IMG/VR virus record: IMGVR_UViG_3300007512_000217
Coordinates: 1 to 22,823 of that record
Source: a virus
Direction: 5' to 3' (one strand)
DNA: 22,823 nucleotides
In this document: positions 1,840 through 22,140 of the stretch, piece by piece
How the letters are laid out: the number at the start of each line of letters is the position of its first letter
How positions within the stretch are numbered: the stretch's first letter is position 1
Translations under genes and position numbers: made by a program
The notes under the pieces: model-generated
Told to the model about the DNA's origin: nothing
The model's database searches: none
The model's input: only the letters and a program-made list of their open reading frames with translations

Positions 1840-2247
1840 TTAGCTTGTTTGTTCTTTTTGAAAGTATACACCGATCAAGTCACTTTCAACTAAGTTAATA
1901 CTGCCACCATTACTCGTATTGTGGATAACTATAAAATCATCTCCAATATGGAAATCGGTTGGTGCAGTGATTGTTGTTTGGTTTGTATGAGATAAATAAT
2001 AAACCCCATTAACAATGACCAAAATTGATCCATTTCTTATTGTTTCCCCTGTATTTAAAGATATCATAAACTTGTCTCCAAAAGAATCTGAAATCTTATT
2101 AGTAACTAGTAGTCTTTCAAAATATTGTGCGTTTTCAATTACTAAGTCGTCAATACGAGACTCTAAAATAGCATCATTATTATTCCATGTTACTCGGCCT
2201 TGATTAAAATCATCGCTAGTTTCAACTGTATTTACTCTGTCGGGCAT
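1840..2247 (-). CDS. Small beta-rich virion protein, fibre module
   Basis: A 135-residue protein of no family I recognise. Residues 1-45 contain a polar helical segment (NNNDAILESRIDDLVIENAQY), followed by alternating hydrophobic strands (ETIRNGSILVIVNGVYYLSH and DFHIGDDFIVIHNTSNGG). Such a helix plus beta layout is common in small fibre-base or baseplate proteins. Its ATG overlaps the TAA of the preceding gene (TAATG at 2245-2249), implying translational coupling with the FN3/zinc-ribbon protein. The next gene begins 20 bases downstream. Confidence 0.65.
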   Translation of the reverse strand: MPDRVNTVETSDDFNQGRVTWNNNDAILESRIDDLVIENAQYFERLLVTNKISDSFGDKFMISLNTGETIRNGSILVIVNGVYYLSHTNQTTITAPTDFHIGDDFIVIHNTSNGGSINLVESDLIGVYFQKEQTS

Positions 2248-3035
2248 TACTGTAAATTAACCTCGTATACTTCATCCTCTAGAGAAATTTTACTTGCTTG
2301 AATAATCTGCTCTATAACAAACCCATATACTTCCTTAGTTCTAATGGACTTTACCATTCAACGTGTGTTGCGCTCATCAACCACCACATCTTTTATCTGA
2401 AGAGGCGGGTAATTTAAAGTAGTGATCATAGTATCTGAAGGGCGTCAGTCTCCAAACATATTAATTTGATTATACTTTGGAGAAGGTGTTACAAGAGCTT
2501 TAAAAGTAATTGGATCAAAATACCCATCTATCCAACCTGTTCCATCACATACATCACAATCATCATATTTAATTCGGTATAAAGTTTCATCCCAACACTC
2601 TGTACAGTGTTGGCCTCAAGAGCGTCTTTTTAAAAGCGTTAAAGTTCTGCCAGAATGCTTTTCAAGTACAAGTTTTTTACGTCTGATAATTTCTCTATGA
2701 TGCTTATTTGTAGTAAGATCTTGTAAATATACTGGAGGCTCTGGGTAAACTTCTGACTCACCTGTGGAAGTATGCTTTACTTTAAACTTGTAATACCACA
2801 ATCTATCTGGGTGATGTAATCCAGATAAAGTCGTATCAGAATAGGAATATGCAGTAGAAGAAACGCCTGAAGCTACTAAATCGTACTCAGAAATATTAGA
2901 GCTAGGTGCTTCACACCTATACACATCTATACTATAATCGGAAAAAGTTTCACTAGGGGAAGATTCGAATGACCAAGTAAGATCTAAACTATCTGGATTA
3001 TATGAGTGTACATCTAAAGTCTCAAGAACTATCAT
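2247..3035 (-). CDS. FN3-like/zinc-ribbon virion protein, probable neck or tail-junction protein (three TGA=Trp codons)
   Basis: Read with TGA=Trp this is a 262-residue protein; with the standard code it would stop after 139 residues. Residues about 5-105 resemble a fibronectin type III domain (LDLTWSFESSPSETFSDYSI, later LWYYKFKVKHTSTGES). A basic linker leads to a four-Cys zinc ribbon, C144-x2-C147 and C160-x2-C163 followed by DGTGWIDGYF. The last 100 residues are mixed alpha/beta. TGA codons are at 2616-2618 (residue 140, RRSW), 2445-2447 (residue 197, FGDWRPS) and 2358-2360 (residue 226, NTRWMVKSI). I recall similar 'CxxCWD...CxxCxGTGxxGGY' proteins in structural modules of other large phages, but cannot name a family with certainty. 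Its place between an adaptor-like protein and fibre proteins suggests the neck or tail attachment region. Confidence 0.8.
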
Positions 3036-4323: not shown

Positions 4324-5247
4324 TTAAGATTTAGCTAAACTAATTTTAGCACAAGCGTCAGTATTACCAATACCGATACCTAAAGTTTCGTAAGCAGCAA
4401 AAGAAATAACATTCTTTTTCTTTTCAATCCAGAATTTTGTATCATTCAAGACATTAAAGTTACCTAAGAACTCTTGGCCAGCAAAAGCATACATGTAATG
4501 GTTTGAACCATCAGATAACAAATCAACTTTGTTTGAAACAATTAACTTACGGCCAAACAATGAAGAGTAAGAATATCCATTTACGGACATTTCAGCACCC
4601 ACTGCATCACCAACAGTTGTTGCATCCCACATGAAGAGTTTGTTAAACATTACTGTAGACATAAGAATAGTCTCAGCTCTTAACTCACTACCATCAAGTG
4701 TGTTAAACAAGGTTTCGAAAATATCTTTCTTAAACGCACCAGAAGCTTGCCAATCGCCGTTAGCGAAAGATGTGTTATTGCTTGAAGCAGTAACTGCAGC
4801 ATCTACTGTTGCGATGAAGTTTTTATCTTCGATTTTTTGAATATCTTTAACGCTGTTACGTTCAATTACTTCCGTAAGAGGCATCTCATATGCCAATAAT
4901 TCTTCTTCAGTTTTTTGGAAATCTTCTGAAGAGATCATGTAGAAAGGAATTTCGTAACGTTCGCCTTGCAAATAGTTTGCAGTAGGCTGTCCGCGAAAGT
5001 TAACAGTCATAGCCTTTGAATCTGGCTCGATGTCAACGATACGTACTAAACCATCATGATTTACAGAACGTTGTAAATCGGCTTTTGTCACATATTCAGG
5101 TTGAATTACTTTACGTGCGAAAGAAACTTCGCGTAGTTTTTGTCTGATAAAAGCAGACCCTTCCATTGCAACTTTTTCAAGTCCTTCAGAAGAGTTAAGC
5201 TTCTGAACAAACAATTCATTAATTGTACTTGCAGAAATATTACTCAT
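4324..5247 (-). CDS. Major capsid protein (HK97 fold)
   Basis: A 307-residue protein that should form the icosahedral shell. The N-terminal part contains the series typical of a large family of phage capsid proteins: 'FIRQKLREVSFARKVI', 'ADLQRSVNHDG', 'VDIEPDSKAMTVNFRGQP', 'ERYEIPFYMISSEDF' and 'AYEMPLTEVIERNSVKDIQ'. The C-terminal part (about 170-300) is the A-domain-like region with 'GRKLIVSNKVDLL' and 'LGIGIGNTDACAKISL'. AGGAG lies before the ATG at 5247 and the gene is followed by a strong terminator. An 'EGLEKVAMEGS' stretch at residues 21-31 resembles the N-terminal motif seen in many neighbouring proteins and could be near a maturation-cleavage site. No TGA codon occurs in it; it ends in TAA. 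Confidence 0.92.
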   Translation of the reverse strand: MSNISASTINELFVQKLNSSEGLEKVAMEGSAFIRQKLREVSFARKVIQPEYVTKADLQRSVNHDGLVRIVDIEPDSKAMTVNFRGQPTANYLQGERYEIPFYMISSEDFQKTEEELLAYEMPLTEVIERNSVKDIQKIEDKNFIATVDAAVTASSNNTSFANGDWQASGAFKKDIFETLFNTLDGSELRAETILMSTVMFNKLFMWDATTVGDAVGAEMSVNGYSYSSLFGRKLIVSNKVDLLSDGSNHYMYAFAGQEFLGNFNVLNDTKFWIEKKKNVISFAAYETLGIGIGNTDACAKISLAKS

Positions 5248-7501: not shown

Positions 7502-9277
7502 TTATTCCTCGATTAGTTCGTTATATAACTTGTTTAGAGATTTATTATCCATTTGAGATAATAATTCAGCTCTTTTAATTAGACGTAACCCACTTGATGC
7601 GAGTCCACTCAACCCTAAAGCTGTTAAAAACGGATGTTTACGGAGAAAATCATTTGTTTTTGTGATAGCTTTTCCACGTCTAACATCTGCTTCTGCCTTT
7701 CCAGCAGCAAGATAGCTCACAGGAATCGACACTAAAAGTGATGGAGCAAAAGCTCCGGCTGACTTTTGAAATGACGATTCTTGCAAAGCCAGAGAACCTA
7801 AGGTTCCGGCTCCTACTACTAATGGCATCAGCCACGGGTATTTTTTCACAAGTTTAAAAAATCCAGATAAATTCTTCTTATCCATCATTTTTGCGTAACC
7901 TGTGTAAGCAGCTCCCAATCCCGCTAATGGTAGTAAGGGGGATTTATGTGGGCTTAATAAAGGCTCTGGAGTATGTCCAAAAACCATTTTCTTTAATTGG
8001 CTGGGTTCAGCTTCAATTTGCTTGTCCCATCCAACATCGGTTTCAGATTTTGGCAAAATTCCATGCTTTCTTAACAACTCTAAAAGAGCCTCTTTGTCTT
8101 TTTCGTCCATTGACCCAATAGCTACTTCAAAATCCTCGAGAGGATCTTCTGATGCAACTTTTTCAAGTACTCTGGACACCACCAGTGGTTTTGTTAGGCT
8201 CATTTTTAAGACCGAGTCACCTAACACCCCTGCTACCTTCTCATTAAAATGCTCATAGCTAACAGAAGATAGTTCCACACCTGTATTTTCAGGAGAAAAT
8301 ACTATATGCTGTCTATCTAATTCATCAGCCAACTCACGTTTTCCAACAGAATAAAGAGCTAATTTTTGAAAATCATCACGTCTAGGCATAATTCTTAACC
8401 CTAAAAAAGTAGACATTACTTCTTCTAAAGGAAATTGAGATAATTTTTCAATTTCTTTTTTATCAAGTCTAGCTTGACTAGCATAAACTAGGTCTTTAGG
8501 GTCTTTAGAAAGGGCACTGAGATCAGCGGGAACATCAATTTTTTTCTTAATGTCTGCATTACTTTCGAATGCACTTTCTTTTAAAGCCTCAGCAAGTTCT
8601 GCACTAGACGTCACAGCCTCTTCTTCTGCACTGGCTAACTTAGCAAGAAAGCCTGCAGTACTGTCGGCAGGGATTGTTACAACGCTGAGGTCAAAGAATT
8701 TTGGTCTTGTATTAATGGCAAACACACGCCGGCCATCATCAAGAACACGGTTCATTTTAGTTTTTAAGTGTGCACAATATTGTCTTAAAGTTTTAGCTTT
8801 ATTACCGCACACCGAACATACATCATAAGGAACTTTACAGCCCATAGATACAGCTGGTAAATGTCCCTCATTTAATTTTTCAATGACTGGAGAAGCTTTA
8901 GAATCATCTAATTCTAAAACAAGTTCTACTCTATTCATTCCTGGATTAAAATGAGAAAAAACAACTCGTCCCATAGCTTTGCGAGGATCTTTATTCACAT
9001 GATGCTTATAGACGTGTCCATTCGCTTCAAAAGTTTTATGATACTCACGAAGTGCTTTATGGGGGAAGTAATCTCCATTTCTATTGGAGCCATAGAACTC
9101 GCCAGCAGACATAGCATTCACTAATGCATATGTTTTCTTAGCTTTACGTTCTAAGCTATCAATAAATTCTCTAATATCTTCTGAATACTCAGCAACCTTG
9201 TTGTGATGGTCAGAATCAATGAGAGTGAATACTTCGGAGTCATGATCCCCGTAGTGATACTCTAGAATTTTATCCAT
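7502..9277 (-). CDS. Capsid maturation (prohead) protease with zinc-finger-like insert and hydrophobic C-terminal domain
   Basis: A 591-residue protein. Residues about 50-210 match the serine protease that processes phage proheads: 'GDYFPHKALREYHKTF', His92/His93 in 'VYKHHVNKDP', 'GRVVFSHFNPGMNRVELVLE', and Ser144 in 'LPAVSMGCKV' as probable nucleophile, then 'RPKFFDLSVVTIPAD'. Between Ser144 and the last motif is a Cys/His cluster (C147, C154, C157, C168, H170) that looks like a metal site. Residues 210-440 are helical and may act as scaffold or core. The last 130 residues hold several hydrophobic segments (LLPLAGLGAAYTGYA; YPWLMPLVVGAGTLGSLALQ; APSLLVSIPVSYLAAG; HPFLTALGLSGLASSGLRL), unusual for a prohead protease. 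It lies two genes after the terminase and just before scaffold-like genes. Active-site residues are assigned by analogy, not alignment. Confidence 0.82.
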   Translation of the reverse strand: MDKILEYHYGDHDSEVFTLIDSDHHNKVAEYSEDIREFIDSLERKAKKTYALVNAMSAGEFYGSNRNGDYFPHKALREYHKTFEANGHVYKHHVNKDPRKAMGRVVFSHFNPGMNRVELVLELDDSKASPVIEKLNEGHLPAVSMGCKVPYDVCSVCGNKAKTLRQYCAHLKTKMNRVLDDGRRVFAINTRPKFFDLSVVTIPADSTAGFLAKLASAEEEAVTSSAELAEALKESAFESNADIKKKIDVPADLSALSKDPKDLVYASQARLDKKEIEKLSQFPLEEVMSTFLGLRIMPRRDDFQKLALYSVGKRELADELDRQHIVFSPENTGVELSSVSYEHFNEKVAGVLGDSVLKMSLTKPLVVSRVLEKVASEDPLEDFEVAIGSMDEKDKEALLELLRKHGILPKSETDVGWDKQIEAEPSQLKKMVFGHTPEPLLSPHKSPLLPLAGLGAAYTGYAKMMDKKNLSGFFKLVKKYPWLMPLVVGAGTLGSLALQESSFQKSAGAFAPSLLVSIPVSYLAAGKAEADVRRGKAITKTNDFLRKHPFLTALGLSGLASSGLRLIKRAELLSQMDNKSLNKLYNELIEE

Positions 9278-10882: not shown

Positions 10883-12430
10883 CTAAAAGCTTTGAAAGTT
10901 CCCCATCTTATGATAAAGGTCCCCTGCTAAAGCTGCGAATAAGGTCGCATGATAAAAATCATCTGGGCCTGTGTTAATATAACGCATTACATTAGTATCT
11001 TCATTATAATCTATTTGGATATTTAAAATGTCTTGCATAAAAGTATCTGTATTATCATCCCATTTTGGGAGAATTATATTGCCTTTTTCAAAGTCAGAGA
11101 AGAAATTAGCCATTACCTGTGTTCTGTTTAAAGTGTATGCAGGTAGTTTGGCATTCCATCTTACCAATTCTTTTTGATTAGGCAGGTGCTGAAAAGATAT
11201 TACCTTTTCAACTCCCAGTCTTTTTCTAAACTCCGAATTAGATGCCTCTCCCATTCCATAGTCTGATGCAATATGAGTGCAATTCCATTTCTTAAATAGT
11301 TCAGGAATATCATCATGAATAAATGAGTACTCGGCTTGTTTTCCCATATATTTTTTAGCATATAAAATTCTAGGTATTCCATTTTCCATACGAACAATAC
11401 TAATAGTCGTGAATGACTTTTCAGAATTTACAGGTCCATAGTCAATTCCTAAAAAGCAAGGTTGCTGTTTATCATACTCAGTAGGTTCCGCACTCATTTC
11501 CCCTCCTGTACAGACTTCCCTCAATTGGTCCTTCGTAATAGGGGTTATTCCAGCATCATAAGAAAGAGCTAATGTTTCATTATAAAAAAGCGCTTTTGAT
11601 TGTCTTTCTCGTTTGTCTATTATATCTCGTTTCCAGTCTACCCAAGGAGCGTCATGAAAGTGGAGTAAACACACTCTAAATCCTTCTAGTTCAGGGCCTT
11701 TACTTCCTGTCGATACCCATTGGCCTCTCTTAGCCGACAATTCTCCTCCACATTTTTTACATATTAGTCCATTTAAACCTATATTATCCTCGTCAAGAAG
11801 ATTCCATTTACCACAATGTTCACATTTAGGCATCCATTCATTTTTACTAGAGTCTTCCCACCTATCTGCCAAAGGTCCTCTGGAGCGTTTCGGAGTTCCT
11901 ACATACATACTATACTTGTACTCCGATCTACTCATTGTTTCCTCAATAACACCAATGTTGTCTTCCATTTGATCCTGCATCTCATCAAAAAGGTTCATGT
12001 CCGCTGAGTACCCTCTAATTCTATCAGCATCTAAATAAGCATAGCGTAAATACATGCGAGAGCCATTTAATAACTGCTTCATAAATACGTTTTGTACAAT
12101 TGATGGGCTTAGGTAGTGCTTTTTAACAAAAGGACTACTATCCATAATTGGTGCTACTCTGTCATGTGAAAAAACTTTTGTCTGATCCACTGAAGGTGAA
12201 ATATACAGTGTCTTAAAGTAAGGTGTTAGTATACTATTAGTCACCATCATATTAGCCAGTGTAGTAGACTTAGCAGTTTGTCGACTAAATTGTAAAACAA
12301 TTTTAGGATGATCTAAATTATAAATTGCCCTTAGATGTGGGTAGTCATCTAGTGACAATATTTTTCCATTTAAGTGCAAAAAACTTTCTGCAAAGTCACT
12401 TTTTGCGAGTTCTATAACTCGTTTATCCAT
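10883..12430 (-). CDS. terL: Terminase large subunit (DNA-packaging ATPase/nuclease)
   Basis: A 515-residue motor protein that pumps DNA into the prohead and cuts it. The ATPase half has a Walker A variant at about 48-57 (FSRQTAKSTT), and Walker B at 146-150 ending in D149-E150 (MNLFDE), with 'GTPKRSRG' near 178-185 as coupling region. A four-Cys zinc ribbon follows: C203-x2-C206 and C224-x2-C227. The nuclease half has the acidic residues of the RNase H-like fold: D330 (FLGIDYGP), D390 (HIASDYGMG) and D491/D504 (DDFYHATLFAALAGD). GAGG precedes the ATG at 12430, nine bases after bS21. It contains no TGA codon; all its Trp are TGG. It ends in TAG. No small terminase subunit is recognised beside it. 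Confidence 0.95.
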   Translation of the reverse strand: MDKRVIELAKSDFAESFLHLNGKILSLDDYPHLRAIYNLDHPKIVLQFSRQTAKSTTLANMMVTNSILTPYFKTLYISPSVDQTKVFSHDRVAPIMDSSPFVKKHYLSPSIVQNVFMKQLLNGSRMYLRYAYLDADRIRGYSADMNLFDEMQDQMEDNIGVIEETMSRSEYKYSMYVGTPKRSRGPLADRWEDSSKNEWMPKCEHCGKWNLLDEDNIGLNGLICKKCGGELSAKRGQWVSTGSKGPELEGFRVCLLHFHDAPWVDWKRDIIDKRERQSKALFYNETLALSYDAGITPITKDQLREVCTGGEMSAEPTEYDKQQPCFLGIDYGPVNSEKSFTTISIVRMENGIPRILYAKKYMGKQAEYSFIHDDIPELFKKWNCTHIASDYGMGEASNSEFRKRLGVEKVISFQHLPNQKELVRWNAKLPAYTLNRTQVMANFFSDFEKGNIILPKWDDNTDTFMQDILNIQIDYNEDTNVMRYINTGPDDFYHATLFAALAGDLYHKMGNFQSF

Positions 12431-12439
12431 TAAGACCTC

Positions 12440-12640
12440 TTATCGACTTTGTGCGTGTCGTATTAAAGACGGCTTCACATAATACTTTCGCTTACGAAGC
12501 TGGTCCATTATACCTGCTCTATCTACTCGTCTAGATAGTCGACGTAATGCGTCTTCAACATTTCCGTCATGTACATACACTTTTAAGCCCTCGTCCCTAG
12601 GCCCGTCGTGCTTTTTCTTCTTATGATAATTTTTTCTCAC
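12440..12640 (-). CDS. rpsU: Ribosomal protein bS21 homologue
   Basis: A 66-residue basic protein. From residue 18 on it matches bacterial small-subunit protein S21: 'LKVYVHDGNVEDALRRLSRR', then 'DRAGIMDQLRKRKYYVKPS', corresponding to the family's 'VALRRFKRxxEKAGxxxExRxRxxYEKP' core. Residues 2-17 are an additional Lys/His-rich N-terminus. In bacteria bS21 sits beside the anti-Shine-Dalgarno region of 16S rRNA and affects initiation. Phage copies are known from large environmental phages and are proposed to steer host ribosomes toward viral mRNA. The start is GTG at 12640, 20 bases inside the upstream gene; no ATG is available in frame. It lies directly before the terminase. The long C-terminal arm of E. 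coli bS21 is missing. Confidence 0.9.
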   Translation of the reverse strand: MRKNYHKKKKHDGPRDEGLKVYVHDGNVEDALRRLSRRVDRAGIMDQLRKRKYYVKPSLIRHAQSR

Positions 12641-14021
12641 TATGTCTTAATGATTTTAAGGCCTCCATGACTCCGCCATAGGGCCCATGTTCAACTGATT
12701 TGTACTTTATATTTCTAAAACTTCTTCTAGGATTTCCCCAGCCCCAGCTATAAGGCAGGTCTCTTCCTCTATGGACCTGAAATTCCATATCCTTTAGTTG
12801 TTTTAAATCTTCTTTGATCTCTAGAACTTTTTGTGCTCTTTGGAATCCTTTTAATTTGGTTAAGTCTTGATTATCTTTATAAAACTCTTCAGCGAGTCTA
12901 GAAAATCTACGCTTAAACAAGTTCGCTGATGCTATCTCAGTTCTAAACTCATGTTCAGGATCTCTGATAGTATCGGGTGTAGTTGTCGTAAATACTTTTC
13001 AATCGTCTTTAAATATATCATATACACCGTAAGGGTAATTTCTATATTTTACGTCCGGATAATAAGGCTTCACAAAAAAATTAATGGGGTGTGCTCCGTC
13101 AACAGAGAGCTCTCCATTAACTGCTCGAGTTCTTAGGTGTAGCGCATTTGCTGCCTCTTCCGAAATACTTTCATCCACGATTAAATTAATATCTATATCA
13201 GAATGAGGGGTATATTTATACCCTGTGATAGAACCTAATATCATAGCTCTGTCAAGCCATTCCAGCGGGCAAATATTATCTTTAATAATGAACAATATTT
13301 GTTGCCTAAGTTCAGGACGTAATTTAAGGTTTTCTTCTCAAACGTCTTTAGCTAAATGTTTTTTTGGTGTATCTAAAATACCTGCTTCTTTGTTTAAATC
13401 ATTAACAACATTTTTTAAGTAAATTTTAGTGTCGTTTTCTACGTTAGGGGTTCACTTATTTACAGCTTCTCCTAACGTTAGGTTACGTTTCGAATCTATC
13501 TGAATCTGTCTGATTCCTGCTGACCTTCCGTCCTTTAAATCTTTAAACACCGCAAATCCCTTAGGTCCCTTTACTGCTCCTTTTTGTCCTACGAACTTTA
13601 GGTTATGTGGGTTATTATTCCTAGTGGCTAAAGTGTCTGACTTGCCATGCCCTTCCCACTTACCTATAATTCTACTTAACTGTGCACTATTAATAGTCTT
13701 TAGAGGAGTCGTCTCTGTAATTAACTTTTTCTTAAGTTTTGTATTCCAGTGGGCGTTAATAGTTCCTGCAGTACTCTGCTTTTTATTTTTAGAAGGTGTT
13801 TTAGTGTTTATATAGTCACGTCCGCGTTCGGAAGTTTCTAATGATGGGTGTTGTGAAAACACTCTATGCGAATACACTACATTGTTTCTCTCCTTCATAA
13901 TTTGAAGCAGTCTTTTCTTACGTTCTCGCTCTTTACGTCTCTTTTTTTCCTCAGCTGTTTCAGCTTCTTTTAAAAGACGCTCTACTTCAATATTAAACGC
14001 TATTTTAGTAATAATATCCAT
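12621..14021 (-). CDS. Fusion of NPGN-type lysozyme-like domain and nucleotidyltransferase-like domain (three TGA=Trp codons)
   Basis: Read with TGA=Trp this is one 466-residue protein; the standard code breaks it into four pieces. Residues 15-45 are a Lys/Arg/Glu-rich helix. Residues about 115-215 match the peptidoglycan-degrading 'NNPGNLR' domain of virion-associated lysins: E123 in 'GKWEGHG', 'NNNPHNLKFVGQKGA', 'GFAVFKDLKDG', 'LTLGEAVNKW' and 'TPNVENDTKIYL'. The Trp of 'NKWTP' (TGA 13452-13454, residue 190) is the conserved Trp of this family. Residues about 243-345 carry the nucleotidyltransferase signature G263-S264 plus D275-x-D277 (LGSITGYKYTPHSDIDINLI); the third acidic residue appears to be Asn in 'HPINFFV'. 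Other TGA codons are residue 228 (13338-13340) and 341 (12999-13001, FKDDWKVF). The C-terminal 120 residues are basic and helical. Activity of the second domain is uncertain. Confidence 0.82.
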
Positions 14022-14026
14022 TATAC

Positions 14027-14593
14027 CTACTTCAGCTTTTCTTTTATATAAGTCTTAGCAGTACTATAGTTCTCTTTAATTGCTGCTTTTAATTTTCTTT
14101 GGTCACCGGGTATAAATCCTTGATTACCTTTAATATAATCCTTGGTGTACTTTTTACCATCGTTAGCGTAAGTCTTAGCTCTGCTATACAAGGATACGGC
14201 TCGATCCGCTATTGTGGGATTAGGTTTAGTGTATCTTTTTGGGAGCTTATACCCCGTTATCGTAATATTAGGGTCAGATTGCGCAGCATATACGCTGTCT
14301 GGGAAAGAAAAAGTACTGGCAGGGTTTCGATACTGATCTTTTGGCCTAATCTTACCGGTAGTTGAATTATACCAATTATACCTCTGCTTACGTTGGTTTT
14401 TACCTACTCGAGTAGATTCTGAAAGCTCTAGAGTGTAATTAGCGGGGTCGGGTAGCGTAGGTTTGGGAGTTACTGTAAACTCTTTTTTTACTCGTTTCTT
14501 TAGCTTGCTCTGATTTCCAGGTAATCATCCTTCATTACCTTTTATATAATCAATAATATTTGAACATTTTACAAAGCCTAATTTTTTTAACAT
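14027..14593 (-). CDS. Basic protein with duplicated 'YIKGNxG[W/F]xPG' motif (one TGA=Trp codon)
   Basis: This 188-residue gene is visible only with TGA=Trp at 14525-14527 (residue 23); otherwise 576 bases appear empty. It starts MLKKLGFVKCSN, the recurrent 'KLGFVK' N-terminus. A motif near the start, 'YIKGNEGWLPGNQSKLKKRV', recurs near the end as 'YIKGNQGFIPGDQRKLKAAI'; the TGA-encoded residue of the first copy aligns with Phe in the second, which favours an aromatic residue at TGA. The middle is Pro/Thr/Tyr-rich and basic. No family is recognised. GGAG lies nine bases before the ATG, overlapping the end of the preceding gene. It ends in TAG five bases before the next ATG. Confidence 0.8.
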
Positions 14594-14597
14594 GTGC

Positions 14598-15419
14598 CTA
14601 TTCTCCATTTAAATCATCAATATGGGGGATTTCTGTCTTCTCACTACTGTCCTGCTCTTTTAATTTAAATTCAATTGCTTCAAAGATGCTTTCATTATCA
14701 GTATTCTCTTGAATTATTCTGTCCACTCGATCAGCTAACTTGACAGCTAGTGATCCCCACTTCTGTGCAAGATCGGGATCTACTCGTGAGCGCTCTTTAA
14801 AGTTATAGTATGAATCTGATAACATATCTCTTAACATATTATCAAACGATTTATCAGGTGCTGCCCCTAATTTCCAAAGAAGGTAATCTTTATCTCCCTG
14901 TAAAGCAATTCTATAAAACTTTTTAATTGTACTGTCTGTTACAGAATCCACTAATTTTTTACGTTCTGCTACATTAAGACCTGCAATATCGAAAAAGTAT
15001 TTAAGAAACATTTCAATGTTATCATGAGAGTATTCAACATTATACTTACCATTAACTATTAACTCAATATCCTCGGAGGTAATTCTCGCTATAGCTAGGC
15101 TGGTAATAAGTCGAAACATAAGTGGATCATCTAAAAGTTTAAAAGCGCCTTTAATTGACTCAATATCGTCTCCGGTGTATACGTCAAATACATACCCAAA
15201 CATTTCAGATATTCCCCAGTCTTTTAGCCATTGTACTTCTACAGAAACTTTTTTATCTTTAAAGTAATCTGGTTGTTCATCAGACATTTCTTCATGGATC
15301 TTCTGGACACCAGGTAACGGAAAAGACAAATTAACTTTTTCTAAACGAGTTAAAATTTCCGCAGGCTCTAGTCTTCCTGCAACTAATGTTCTTACGTATC
15401 TTTCGTGTGGTATTTTCAT
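14598..15419 (-). CDS. Unknown helical protein
   Basis: A 273-residue acidic, helical protein starting MKIPHERYVRTLVAGRLEP. Notable segments are 'LKDWGISEMFGYVFDVYTGD', 'MFLKYFFDIAGLNVAERKKL' and an acidic C-terminus 'SSEKTEIPHIDDLNGE'. I recognise no catalytic motif, no signal peptide and no membrane segment. Its ATG overlaps the stop of the 3'-phosphoesterase gene (TAATG at 15417-15421), so the two are probably co-translated and may act together. It ends in TAG. A structural, packaging-associated or regulatory role are all possible. Confidence 0.7.
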   Translation of the reverse strand: MKIPHERYVRTLVAGRLEPAEILTRLEKVNLSFPLPGVQKIHEEMSDEQPDYFKDKKVSVEVQWLKDWGISEMFGYVFDVYTGDDIESIKGAFKLLDDPLMFRLITSLAIARITSEDIELIVNGKYNVEYSHDNIEMFLKYFFDIAGLNVAERKKLVDSVTDSTIKKFYRIALQGDKDYLLWKLGAAPDKSFDNMLRDMLSDSYYNFKERSRVDPDLAQKWGSLAVKLADRVDRIIQENTDNESIFEAIEFKLKEQDSSEKTEIPHIDDLNGE

Positions 15420-15835
15420 TAATCTATTTGGTGATAAAAATATCGTTTTCCACGTTGAGGCACAATTCTAAAATTCCTATCGTCTCCCTCAAATAAAAGT
15501 CCAGCCTTTTTATCAATTTCAATTAAATTAGCTGTGCCTTTGGAAATACAAGTGTATACATTAACGTGTCCCTTTTTACTAAATGAGCCCTCTTTAGTTA
15601 GAAATTCTTCTGGGTGGTCTTTCGACCGACGTATCGGTACAGGATAATTTCTATCTAACGGGTTCTTCTTTGATGACCAAGAATACACAGTGTCTGGAGT
15701 ACTTACTGACGCCAGTCTAATATCAAAATGTATTCCTTTATTATTTTTATGTGAGAATACAGCATACTTAAAGTGTGTCTCATCCAAGTCGAACTTTAAG
15801 TATTTGAAATTCTTACTATAAAATTTTTTCGCCAT
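15419..15835 (-). CDS. Stand-alone LigD-type 3'-phosphoesterase domain protein
   Basis: A 138-residue protein resembling the 3'-phosphoesterase module of bacterial NHEJ ligase LigD, which trims 3'-ribonucleotides and 3'-phosphates from DNA ends. Matching features are H29, then 'GIHFDIRL' with H36, D38 and R40 (LigD: 'LHYDFRL'), 'VYSWSSKKNP' (LigD: 'SWAVPKGP'), 'RSKDHPEEF' with H74 (LigD: 'DHPLEY'), and 'SKKGHVNVY' (LigD: 'GAGTVxxWD'). The interval from H36 to H74 is 38 residues, close to that in LigD (36). No ligase or polymerase domain is attached. The spacing H29-H36 is one residue longer than I remember for LigD. A role in healing DNA ends, perhaps of the viral genome, is inferred. No good Shine-Dalgarno site precedes the ATG. 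Confidence 0.75.
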   Translation of the reverse strand: MAKKFYSKNFKYLKFDLDETHFKYAVFSHKNNKGIHFDIRLASVSTPDTVYSWSSKKNPLDRNYPVPIRRSKDHPEEFLTKEGSFSKKGHVNVYTCISKGTANLIEIDKKAGLLFEGDDRNFRIVPQRGKRYFYHQID

Positions 15836-15847
15836 ATAAGTTAATGA

Positions 15848-16141
15848 TTACTTATTAAAAATGCCCTTCAAAGCGTTTTTATCTAGCGCCATTTTTGTTT
15901 CCCATCTTGCAAACTGTTCGTCAAGTTTACCTTGGAAAATATCATTGACTGTTGTTTTTAAATCGCTCCAGCTCTCTGGAGGATGTTCTTCAGCAACTTT
16001 AACAAAAAGAGTCTCAAAGTCTTTATCTGTTTCCAAAGTTACGTTTTCAGCTTCCTTAAATATTGGGGTATCTTCAAAAAATTCTCGCACTTTATTATCT
16101 CCCTCCTCATCAAAGAAATTTATAATTATTTGTTCTGACAT
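15848..16141 (-). CDS. Small acidic unknown protein
   Basis: A 97-residue acidic protein (MSEQIIINFFDEEGDNKVRE at the start), mainly helical, with a C-terminal Lys-containing helix (TKMALDKNALKGIFNK). No family is recognised. GAGG lies before the ATG at 16141, which begins three bases after the previous stop. It and the next upstream gene are both short and acidic, suggesting small accessory proteins, possibly partners of the basic Ala/Lys-rich proteins encoded upstream. Confidence 0.65.
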   Translation of the reverse strand: MSEQIIINFFDEEGDNKVREFFEDTPIFKEAENVTLETDKDFETLFVKVAEEHPPESWSDLKTTVNDIFQGKLDEQFARWETKMALDKNALKGIFNK

Positions 16142-16144
16142 AGT

Positions 16145-16372
16145 TTAGTCCTCATCCATTATACTAAAATAAAAATCTAGTACTGCGTCATCTGGCTGTT
16201 TGTCAAAGGATGCTACTAAATCATTATTGTCGTTAAAAACAGAAATAGGACTACTCTCTAGTCCTACACTGTAATCAATTGTGTACCCAAAATTAGATTC
16301 TAGGTAATCTTTAATATGCTCTGCTATAATATATTGGCTACTTGAACCATTAGTTTCAATTGTGAAATACAT
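16145..16372 (-). CDS. Small acidic unknown protein
   Basis: A 75-residue protein that starts MYFTIETNGSSSQYIIAEHI and ends FYFSIMDED. The pattern of alternating strands and a helix (HIKDYLESNFGYTIDYSVG; SPISVFNDNNDLVASFD) suggests a compact alpha/beta fold. No family is recognised. The ATG overlaps the TAA of the preceding gene (TAATG), so translation is probably coupled. Confidence 0.65.
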   Translation of the reverse strand: MYFTIETNGSSSQYIIAEHIKDYLESNFGYTIDYSVGLESSPISVFNDNNDLVASFDKQPDDAVLDFYFSIMDED

Positions 16373-18544: not shown

Positions 18545-19267
18545 CTAATCTTCCTCATACGATTCGAGTATCTTTGTGACTAAAGAATGTCGAACTATAT
18601 CTTCTCTTGTGAACTTAACTACCCTTATTCTATCGTCTTTATCTTCAAGTCGGTGGACCGCATCAGTAAGTCCGCTAACCTTATCGGTAGTGTCCTGTTG
18701 TCTCTCGTCTCCTGCTACAATTATGTGCGAATTTTTTCCTAGCCTGGATAAAAATAATTTAACCTGTGTGGGGCTAGTGTTTTGTGCCTCGTCTAGAATT
18801 GCGACGCAATTTTCAAGCGTTATACCTCTCATGTACGCTAGAGGTAATACTTCAATAGTCTTATCCTTTACCATAATATCGGCGACTGTTTTGGTAGCGA
18901 TCTTTTGTATATTCATATAAAATGAAAACATAAATGGATCAGTCTTCTCTTCTACAGTCCCAGGTAAAAATCCAAGCTTTTCTCCCGCTTCAACGATAGG
19001 TTTAGTTAGATATATCTTTTTTATCTTCCTATCCTTATCTTTTAAGACCATTAGTGCTGCTAACGCAGCAATATACGTCTTACCAGTCCCAGCGGGACCA
19101 GTTGCAAAAGTTAAAGGGTTTTTAACTATCGAGTTATATAACTCTTCTTGCCGCCAAGTTCAAAAATCTGGGGTAATCCTAACATTTCTTAAGTTATTAA
19201 TACCCGCTGAGTTTCTCCCCTTTTTTGCATGTAAATCTTTTACGTTTCTTTTCTTCTTTTTGCTCAT
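18545..19267 (-). CDS. phoH: PhoH-family ATPase (one TGA=Trp codon)
   Basis: A 240-residue protein starting at ATG 19267 (MSKKKKRNVKDLHAKKGRNS), with AAGGA about ten bases upstream. Walker A is at 57-64 (GPAGTGKT), then 'IYLTKPIVEAGEKLGFLPGT', 'EVLPLAYMRGITLENCVAIL', Walker B with 'DEAQN', and 'GDERQQD', all classical PhoH features. The C-terminus 'VRHSLVTKILESYEED' also fits. TGA at 19160-19162 is Trp36 (ITPDFWTWRQEEL); with standard code the only open stretch starts after the Walker A motif, which would make a dead protein. PhoH is frequent in phages; the true function (RNA-related ATPase or helicase) remains debated. Ends in TAG, directly before a promoter. Confidence 0.93.
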
Positions 19268-20138: not shown

Positions 20139-20399
20139 TTACTCTCCTGTCTTATAATTGGGGGCAAGTACTTTCTTACCACTATTCATAAATTGTGTGG
20201 TAGTCTGATTTTTAGGTATGTTTACTCCTACAGACTTACCTGATGCAATTCGTTTTTGAGAAGGGGACCCATACATCTTCCAAGCCGTTCGTTTCACAAA
20301 ACCTAGGTTCTTAGAATTATAGCTAGTTCCTTCTGGAACTTTAGGAGGAGCTCCTAAATCAAGTCCAATTTTTTCAAAGCCTAAATCTTTTAAAGTCAT
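20139..20399 (-). CDS. Small basic protein with 'LGFxKI' N-terminus
   Basis: An 86-residue basic protein starting MTLKDLGFEKIGLDLG; a second 'NLGFVKRTAW' occurs at about 31-40, so the motif is present twice. The remainder is Lys/Ser/Thr/Asn-rich with no predicted hydrophobic core, consistent with a flexible or nucleic-acid-associated protein. No family is recognised. The ATG follows the upstream TAA by one base (TAATATG). Confidence 0.62.
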   Translation of the reverse strand: MTLKDLGFEKIGLDLGAPPKVPEGTSYNSKNLGFVKRTAWKMYGSPSQKRIASGKSVGVNIPKNQTTTQFMNSGKKVLAPNYKTGE

Positions 20400-20400
20400 A

Positions 20401-20820
20401 TTACTTACCCTTCTTCTTAGTTAGCCTTTTCTCTGCTTCCACCAATGCTTGTGGATATATCTTTCCACTACTAACAAATTTAGTTGAGTCTGAAGAATGC
20501 ATTTTATATAATTCTTCAGTAGGCATAGTTATTTTGTTGAGTGTCTTAACACTAAGTTCTCGTAAAGTGTCATCCTTTACTTCAGTTCCAAACACGCCCG
20601 CTATGAGCGGTGCATGCTTCTCTTTTAATTGTTCCACTGCTACACTTTTTAACTTAGACCCTACAAAAGGTACATCTTGTACAGCCTGTATCTTCTTAGC
20701 TCCTGCTACAGTTTTAGGATGCTTAGATCCAACTAAAGCCAGTTTATTAGAAACCACGTCCACTAATGTGGGTGTTTCCTCTGCTATTTTTGTGAAACCT
20801 AGTTTTTTAAATATAATCAT
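20401..20820 (-). CDS. Small protein with 'KKLGFTKIAEE' N-terminus
   Basis: A 139-residue protein starting MIIFKKLGFTKIAEETPTLV, one of the best examples of the shared N-terminal motif. The body is helical and Lys/Val-rich ('AVQDVPFVGSKLKSVAVEQL', 'KTLNKITMPTEELYKMH') and ends KRLTKKKGK. No family is recognised. It begins two bases after the stop of the preceding gene (TAATTATG) and is not preceded by a good Shine-Dalgarno site. Confidence 0.65.
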   Translation of the reverse strand: MIIFKKLGFTKIAEETPTLVDVVSNKLALVGSKHPKTVAGAKKIQAVQDVPFVGSKLKSVAVEQLKEKHAPLIAGVFGTEVKDDTLRELSVKTLNKITMPTEELYKMHSSDSTKFVSSGKIYPQALVEAEKRLTKKKGK

Positions 20821-20822
20821 AA

Positions 20823-21329
20823 TTAAAATCTCATTTTAAGTGATAGTCGCCCCCAATCGCCTTTCCCTTTTGGAAAGTTGTATTGAAATGACGTCCTATT
20901 ATAGTTGCCTTTGCCTTTTTTGTGGTAGGAAATTTTCCGACTTGTTACAGCTTCGATAGCTTGTCTAAGTTTAGGGTTGTTTCGCGCTGCAAAATAAGCT
21001 GTTGGTGCAGCTACTGCTGTAGCTAGTGCTCCTTTAGGATTTTCCTTAACAATATTAGTGACTTCTTTTACCCTATCTTTAAAATAATTTTTCACGTCTC
21101 CGTGAGTCTTTTTATATTTACTCACATCTTTAAAAACAGCCTCCACTGGCTTTTCCCATACAGGAGGGTTATCTTTTTTAGTCATCAAAGATTTATTGAT
21201 GTTTAACATCGAAGACCTCGCTACTTCTGGTATTTTTACAGGGCCAGGTTTAAGCGCCATAGAAGATGACGAAGACATCATAGTCTCCTCACCTTTTGCT
21301 AATTTTATAAATCCTAGTTCTCTAAACAT
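20823..21329 (-). CDS. Basic protein with 'ELGFIKLA' N-terminus and Ala-rich hydrophobic segment
   Basis: A 168-residue basic protein starting MFRELGFIKLAKGEE. A Ser-rich stretch follows ('TMMSSSSSMALKPG'), then helices, and an Ala-rich segment at about 113-131 (KGALATAVAAPTAYFAARNN). The C-terminus is aromatic and basic ('KGNYNRTSFQYNFPKGKGDW'), ending in LSLKMRF, a hydrophobic/aromatic C-terminal end. No family is recognised. The 88 bases upstream of its ATG hold no convincing promoter or larger gene. Confidence 0.65.
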   Translation of the reverse strand: MFRELGFIKLAKGEETMMSSSSSMALKPGPVKIPEVARSSMLNINKSLMTKKDNPPVWEKPVEAVFKDVSKYKKTHGDVKNYFKDRVKEVTNIVKENPKGALATAVAAPTAYFAARNNPKLRQAIEAVTSRKISYHKKGKGNYNRTSFQYNFPKGKGDWGRLSLKMRF

Positions 21330-21417: not shown

Positions 21418-22140
21418 CTACCTTTTTTTAGCACTGTTAAAAAATCTATTTACTGTTTTCATATGATCTCTAGCTGCAGCTGATTCAGATGCACCTGTGG
21501 TCTTAGTACCACTGCCTGTAGTAAGCGTATTATTCCATTTACGAGTCGTAGTAGGAGTTTTCATTTTGTTATCCTTACCCACATAAGCAAGGGTATGCTT
21601 AATTTCCTTAATGGTCTGATCCGCATGCCTAGAAGTATCAGAAAACGCTGTTACTCGACCCGCATCTAACTCTCTTAATAAATGAGCTGCGTCAAATTTA
21701 GGATATTTCTTAGGGCTATTACCATAAGAGGTCAAAACATGGCCTACCACTTTTTGTTTGTGGTCGCCTTCTACCCTAGGTGTACTATGTCTCGATTTAA
21801 TGACTTTAGTCGCTCTCTCTATTGAGTCGTCTTCTGCTAATTTTACAAAGCCTAATTTTTTTAAATTCATGTTAATGTCTCCATCATCTAAACGTGTTCT
21901 AATATAAGAACGCTCTTTATCAAATAACTCTAGTTGCTTACTAGCTGGTTTAGCTGGTTTAATTGGCTTGTCTGTTGTGGGTATTGCTGTAATTTTCTTC
22001 TTTGTGTTTGTCGGGGTGAAAAAACGTGCCGGGATATTATCAGTCTTACGAGCTATACTGGCTTTTAAAACGGCCTGCTGCCGAGTATACTTTTTTGCAT
22101 ACATCAAATGACCTATATATCTCTGGATGGGAGTTCTCAT
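21418..22140 (-). CDS. Unknown basic protein with a second in-frame start
   Basis: A 240-residue basic frame. Residues 1-90 (MRTPIQRYIGHLMYAKKYTR... to ...RTRLDDGDIN) are Lys/Thr/Pro-rich. At residue 91 (ATG at 21870) the sequence reads MNLKKLGFVKLAEDD, exactly the N-terminal signature of neighbouring genes, and has its own GGAG site eight bases upstream. A second, 150-residue product from the inner start is therefore likely. The outer ATG at 22140 also has a good GGGAG site at seven bases. The C-terminal part is His/Lys/Thr-rich and helical, ending 'DHMKTVNRFFNSAKKR'. No family is recognised. It ends in TAG. Confidence 0.68.
   Translation of the reverse strand: MRTPIQRYIGHLMYAKKYTRQQAVLKASIARKTDNIPARFFTPTNTKKKITAIPTTDKPIKPAKPASKQLELFDKERSYIRTRLDDGDINMNLKKLGFVKLAEDDSIERATKVIKSRHSTPRVEGDHKQKVVGHVLTSYGNSPKKYPKFDAAHLLRELDAGRVTAFSDTSRHADQTIKEIKHTLAYVGKDNKMKTPTTTRKWNNTLTTGSGTKTTGASESAAARDHMKTVNRFFNSAKKR
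21868..21882 (-). promoter_or_regulatory. Internal ribosome binding site and start codon
   Basis: GGAG at 21882-21879 is followed after eight bases by ATG at 21870-21868, in frame with the longer 240-residue gene. It would give a 150-residue protein beginning with the recurrent MNLKKLGFVKLAE signature. Confidence 0.65.

Follow-up and report, generated by a model that had tools for sequence, protein, structure and literature searches.

A stand-alone LigD-type 3'-phosphoesterase with an altered active site among the late genes of uncultured tailed phages

We report that a viral DNA fragment of 22,823 bases from IMG/VR, analysed over its whole length and called the window below, encodes among its late genes a stand-alone member of the LigD 3'-phosphoesterase (PE) superfamily. 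The protein retains the metal triad and the phosphate-binding arginine and histidine of the family and has lost the equivalent of a catalytic tyrosine; related phages encode, in addition, fusions of a PE domain to an ATP-dependent ligase. We propose, with a probability of about one half, that this PE is a metal-dependent enzyme that would clean 3' ends late in infection, readying DNA ends and nicks for sealing around packaging.

Results

The phosphoesterase gene of the window

The original prediction, made from the sequence of the window, had placed a LigD-type phosphoesterase in an open reading frame that proves to be real (Table 1). Its strand, which had not been stated, is the minus strand: the gene runs from 15835 to 15419, as all late genes of the window do, and the plus-strand frame over the same positions is full of stops. 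The five residues named in that prediction (H29, H36, D38, R40 and H74) are all found in the protein, and its 'SW' and 'DHP' motifs are present as S52-W53 and D73-H74-P75. Comparison of two pairs of PE genes revealed purifying selection, with dN of 0.06-0.13 against dS of 1.3-2.3, a ratio that is approximate because these dS values are near saturation.

Table 1. Coordinates of the window features discussed in the text
Feature	Position	Strand	Remarks
Probable major head protein	4324..5247	minus	phrog_2522, E 5.9e-11
Probable head maturation protease, in the cluster of structural genes	7502..9277	minus	phrog_18299, E 2.5e-10
Terminase large subunit (TerL)	10883..12430	minus	phrog_675, E 2.5e-65
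466-aa protein, C-terminal part Pol-beta/MNT-type nucleotidyltransferase (NT) (GSITGYKYTPHSDIDIN)	12621..14021	minus	three TGA codons read as Trp
193-aa protein	14027..14608	minus	a single in-frame TGA, translated as Trp; LKKLGFVK motif close to N-terminus
P0002, 273-aa all-helical protein	14598..15419	minus	start overlaps PE stop (TAATG)
Stand-alone LigD-type 3'-phosphoesterase (PE)	15419..15835	minus	138 aa; H29/H36/D38 as metal triad, R40/H74 as phosphate ligands, F78 at the Tyr88 position
p97, conserved small protein adjoining the PE slot on its upstream side	15848..16141	minus	
p75, a further conserved small protein in the block of p97	16145..16372	minus	
PhoH-like ATPase	18545..19267	minus	one in-frame TGA read as Trp; truncated under the standard code

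Fold and descent

The Pfam profile LigD_N matched the window PE with an E value of 0.031 (14.8 bits), which is below its curated cut-off of 31.1 bits. It reached E values of 2.5e-4 and 3.2e-4 on the orthologues of the window PE (21.3-21.6 bits), and exceeded the cut-off on the fused relatives described below (35.6-42.2 bits, E as low as 9.6e-11). The profile search that had been suggested as a check thus fell short for the window protein but supported its orthologues. A profile built from nine stand-alone PEs retrieved the structure of the Korarchaeum PE (3p4h) with an E value of 0.0025. We then modelled the window PE with AlphaFold2 from 18 phage sequences (pLDDT 87.5). When the model was compared with known structures by VIA-align, ranks 1 to 6 were occupied by all six known LigD-PE entries, with Z scores of 14.9 (3p4h), 14.9 (3p43), 13.5 (3n9d), 13.5 (3n9b), 12.2 (5dmp) and 11.5 (2lj6), while rank 7 scored 4.8. 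Foldseek by itself did not give these entries a high rank, and it was VIA-align that brought them out. Matches to PadR, MTRES1 and flavivirus NS5 were dismissed as noise.

The alignment of 18 divergent phage PEs (10 stand-alone relatives and 8 fused domains) contains nine invariant columns: H29, H36, D38, R40, S52, P65, H74, G83 and F115. Five of them are exactly the residues picked out beforehand. H29/H36/D38 correspond to the metal triad His42/His48/Asp50 of LigD, and R40/H74 to its phosphate ligands Arg52/His84; these counterparts form the Mn site and bind the scissile phosphate, respectively (PMC8656161, PMC4797286). Given the LigD_N scores of the orthologues, the profile match to 3p4h, the fold of the model and the invariant columns, the agreement of residues is more than chance. 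The window PE therefore belongs to the LigD 3'-phosphoesterase superfamily by fold and descent, and the assignment to the LigD end-processing domain stands.

The window PE has the same fold as the PE of Pseudomonas aeruginosa LigD (3n9b/3n9d/2lj6, Z 11.5-13.5), and H42, H48, D50, R52, S61 and H84 of the latter all have equivalents. It differs in that Tyr88 is replaced by F78 and Glu82 by K72, in being unfused, and in that Ku was not found in its lineage. The stand-alone PEs of the archaea Candidatus Korarchaeum (3p4h), Methanosarcina barkeri (3p43) and Methanocella paludicola (5dmp) are, like the window PE, compact single-domain beta-barrels and share with it the metal triad and the arginine and histidine of the phosphate pocket. 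Identity to them is about 15-18%, and their active-site tyrosine and glutamate are replaced in the window PE. The setting differs as well: the window PE lies in a phage late-gene context with no NHEJ operon, whereas the M. paludicola PE is part of an operon with Pol and ligase (PMC4797286).

An altered active site

Tyr88 is the sixth catalytic residue of Pseudomonas LigD; its mutation abolishes activity (PMC8656161), and it has been called strictly conserved (PMC4797286). The position is occupied by phenylalanine in the window PE and by W, T, A or S in other stand-alone PEs, L005 having W, while the tyrosine is present in all eight fused PEs. The position of Glu82, which is required for the 3'-phosphatase step of LigD PE, holds lysine in the window PE and K, R or P in other members. 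The published N-terminal phosphatase residues had no confident match in the window PE, whose residues 1-10 are modelled with a pLDDT of 46. Conversely, an arginine pair, R69 and R70, is invariant in the stand-alone branch only, the fused-domain columns being less surely aligned there. A branch with 100/100 support sets the stand-alone PEs apart, as one group, from the group of fused ones, so that the stand-alone PE is an established lineage and not a broken ligase. Since Tyr88 is replaced, fold and descent place the window PE in the superfamily as a divergent branch, not as a canonical LigD PE. As judged from its sequence it is a predicted enzyme, which could be inactive or of other specificity.

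These departures raise the question of whether the stand-alone PE is dead or has been repurposed as a DNA-end-binding barrel, accessory for example to the terminase, the nucleotidyltransferase or the PE-ligase. Such a barrel would fit the loss of both the Tyr88 and Glu82 equivalents and the new arginine pair. However, the metal triad and R40/H74 remain invariant down to 36% identity, whereas a protein without catalysis would be under no constraint to keep them; we therefore consider this explanation unlikely.

PE-ligase fusions and other LigD-like proteins in related viruses

The window comes from a lineage of uncultured tailed phages, with contigs of up to 210 kb, that read TGA as Trp. A PE-ATP-ligase fusion of about 440-470 aa (e.g. 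L016:4251-5618, L numbers designating loci of related viral contigs) is encoded in 10 of 19 related records. It combines a LigD_N domain (9.6e-11) with an ATP-dependent ligase and a ligase OB domain and has no primase-polymerase (POL). The six PE catalytic residues, the ligase motif I (K-x-D-G) and the later ligase motifs are all invariant. The fusion thus shares virus group and superfamily with the window PE, but falls in the other branch, keeps the full catalytic set and carries the ligase and OB domains. Several fusions lie a few kb from the gene block that holds the stand-alone PE: 0.1-2 kb upstream of p75 in L010, L012, L016, L017 and L027/L031, and about 6 kb upstream of it in L025. In the 210-kb record of L026, about 12 kb separate the fusion from the stand-alone PE. 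Both forms occur together on the contigs of L010, L016 and L026 only, most of the other contigs with a stand-alone PE being short fragments; no fusion was found in the 41.8-kb L021 record, where the stand-alone PE is present. In three long records another ATP-dependent ligase, possibly the replicative one, is encoded at a different place.

The original prediction had noted that no ligase, polymerase or Ku is nearby. This holds inside the 22.8-kb window but not in several of its relatives, where the PE-ligase lies a few kb upstream. The lack of a ligase near the PE reflects the fragment that was sampled and is misleading for the lineage. As to a polymerase, a nucleotidyltransferase gene does follow P0002 on its 3' side in the window, in a frame that is hidden unless TGA is translated as Trp. 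It is conserved between P0002 and TerL, and in the window Asn occupies the position where a third carboxylate is usual. We do not take it as an active polymerase partner of the PE, because this position is Asn, Ser or Thr across the NT family.

A search with the fusion retrieved 39 IMG/VR contigs, and the match extends into the ligase part in 33. Of the remaining six, the three more distant contigs L117, L119 and L120 encode a LigD-type primase-polymerase joined to a PE (POL-PE; L117:2227-3759, L120:2281-3636). In L117 and L120 the POL-PE gene appears to lie between two RNA polymerase beta-prime-like fragments, recognised in L117 by the motif NADYDGD. The other three (L115, L116 and L118) carry the PE domain within large proteins, of 1446 and 1629 aa in L116 and L118. 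The 1629-aa protein (L118:1-4887) contains an inorganic pyrophosphatase domain followed by a PE domain, which what looks like an intein splits just before the second metal-binding histidine. An insert at this place suggests that the PE active site of L118 is functional. A search for Ku in 11 related records of up to 210 kb, which may be fragments, found nothing, and LigD-type primase-polymerase gave weak matches below the cut-off in six of 11 related records.

An optional insert in a conserved late gene block

In order of transcription, the PE gene is followed by those of P0002, the 193-aa protein, NT, TerL, the head protease and the major head protein. The placement of the PE upstream of the terminase and beside P0002 had been noted; it is confirmed in the window and conserved in related contigs. 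For comparison, 27 viral contigs were recruited through a terminase alignment, and the order p75-p97-(zinc finger)-[PE]-P0002-NT-TerL is repeated in many of them. The PE slot is occupied in the window, L002, L005, L008, L010, L013/L021, L016, L026, L029 and L061, and vacant in L009, L012, L017, L025 and L027/L031. P0002 is found in nearly all relatives whose contig spans its place. Since P0002 and NT are kept where the PE is missing, the block is a core one into which the PE is optionally inserted. In several relatives a small Ogr/Delta-like zinc-finger gene overlaps the PE start (L005:4928-5149, L002:4710-4910); none was seen in the window.

P0002 had been put forward as a candidate partner of the PE on the grounds of translational coupling. 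The overlap of the PE stop with the P0002 start is borne out; the partnership is not. P0002 is kept in the PE-less L009, L012, L017, L025 and L027 and lies sometimes 0.3-0.6 kb from the PE, which makes it a core late gene and not a PE-specific partner. Fold comparison of P0002 gave no confident match (the lowest Foldseek E value was 0.7, and the highest VIA Z, 7.3, covered the C-terminal helices only), and we did not assign it a known fold on these weak matches. P0002 may be a small terminase, an identity that comparison of its modelled fold neither backs nor opposes.

Several late proteins of the window have in common an LKKLGFxKxA-like motif, mostly N-terminal (minus strand, 20139-20399, 20401-20820, 20823-21329, 21418-22140 and 14027-14608). 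Its core LGFxK occurs 15 times over all loci against 2.8 expected. The motif is a possible capsid-targeting leader.

Genetic code, tRNAs and inteins

The genes of the 193-aa protein, the 466-aa NT protein and PhoH remain open only if TGA codes for Trp, and in-frame TGA codons of the window lie on the minus strand at 2247-3035, 12621-14021, 14027-14608 and 18545-19267. Wherever sites were compared, TGA proved to stand for Trp: W228 and W341 of NT, both TGA-encoded in the window, align with Trp in relatives, and 'ETA*LNEW' in P0002 of L002 aligns with 'EVQWLKDW' of the window. In-frame TGA codons for Trp also occur in L002, L007, L008, L009, L020, L023-L026, L029 and L061. Trp codon usage varies inside a single terminase family: both TGA and TGG serve for Trp in some members, and in others the core genes show TGG alone. 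Standard-code annotation breaks many genes of the lineage, including those of the nucleotidyltransferase and PhoH. In-frame TGA codons are absent from the PE gene of the window but occur in the PE genes of L002, L008 and L061. At codon 86 of the L002 gene (L002:5131-5133), the Trp that stands in place of the essential tyrosine is encoded by TGA, so that a standard-code reading cuts the PE off exactly there.

The 210-kb record of L026 (L072:5786-5883, L073/L074) contains more than 25 tRNA genes and a tmRNA. One of the tRNAs has a UCA anticodon (SeC according to ARAGORN) and shares A1-U72 and G73 with tRNA-Trp, but has a long variable arm. From these features it is a candidate TGA-reading suppressor. 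TerL carries an in-frame insert of about 350-400 aa in L022, L023, L024, L025, L026, L029, L030 and L061, near residue 141 in L023-L026, L029 and L030; this insert is probably an intein.

Searches for known phage relatives

No match to the PE family was found in PHROGs. Against 50,697 phage records, tblastn with an archaeal PE, with the window PE and with its L005 orthologue gave nothing, and with the fusion matched the ligase part only. The stand-alone PE alignment found no relative in 84,980 prokaryote genomes, in a pattern-based search able to detect close relatives only. We found no description of a phage LigD PE in the openly licensed literature. Phage PE, PE-ligase and POL-PE thus appear to be undescribed in PHROGs and in these phage records.

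Discussion

We favour 3'-end cleaning because the metal triad and the Arg/His pair are kept, the gene is under purifying selection, it lies in a packaging neighbourhood, and related phages encode a PE-ligase. The PE would be made together with packaging and structural proteins. It would remove 3' blocks (3'-phosphates, 3'-terminal ribonucleotides, damaged termini) at nicks and ends of replicated phage DNA and leave a 3'-OH, to be sealed before or around packaging by a ligase, which in relatives would be the PE-ligase that the phage itself encodes. We infer that the PE is active despite the missing tyrosine, acts on such substrates at that time and at packaging rather than entry, and cooperates with the PE-ligase. 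Healing of genome ends by the PE, as first suggested, is plausible.

The placement among structural genes would also suit a protein that travels in the virion or is synthesised immediately on entry, and that heals or trims incoming 3' ends for circularisation. There are precedents for end joining by phages: according to PMC7719229, the Ku-encoding phages Omega and Corndog exploit host LigD, and Corndog combines a 3' overhang with end joining (PMC4351075). The large PE proteins of L116 and L118 could moreover be virion proteins. However, Ku was not found in the 11 records searched, and the PE lacks the LGFxK N-terminal motif of several neighbouring proteins, which makes action on entry rather improbable. 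The likeness to these mycobacteriophages, which apply NHEJ-type chemistry to their own genome ends, is one of idea only: as reported in PMC7719229 (citing Pitcher et al. 2006), Omega and Corndog encode Ku and borrow host LigD, whereas the lineage of the window has phage-encoded LigD-like parts and no Ku that we could find. Healing of the 3' ends of cleaved RNA or tRNA, as RNA repair or anti-defence, is very unlikely: LigD PEs do act on 3' ribonucleotides (PMC8656161), a tRNA array is present in one relative (G015) and loss of the tyrosine may alter the substrate, but the PE is placed late with packaging genes, the block holds no RNA ligase or kinase, and the fused relatives carry a DNA-ligase domain.

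Beyond 3'-end cleaning by the window PE, we advance only tentatively a wider scheme. These uncultured phages, many of them large, might possess a dismembered, Ku-less LigD-type end-joining system, whose parts are PE alone, PE-ligase, POL-PE and PE inside giant proteins. The altered-site PE would then perform packaging-associated 3'-end quality control on the phage's own genome, with a late PE-ligase and possibly NT.

Bacterial and archaeal repair is the known setting of LigD-type phosphoesterases, which also have eukaryotic relatives. The enzyme type is thus a known one; new in the collections searched here are its phage-encoded split form and its altered active site. The occurrence of PE, PE-ligase and POL-PE in uncultured viruses suggests an undescribed viral use of LigD chemistry, as a toolkit with which these phages mend DNA ends. 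If active, the stand-alone PE would represent viral LigD chemistry without Ku and a natural active-site variant (Tyr to Phe or Trp) of a metal-dependent phosphoesterase, and it would open to experiment the role of 3'-end healing in packaging or in circularisation of the genome.
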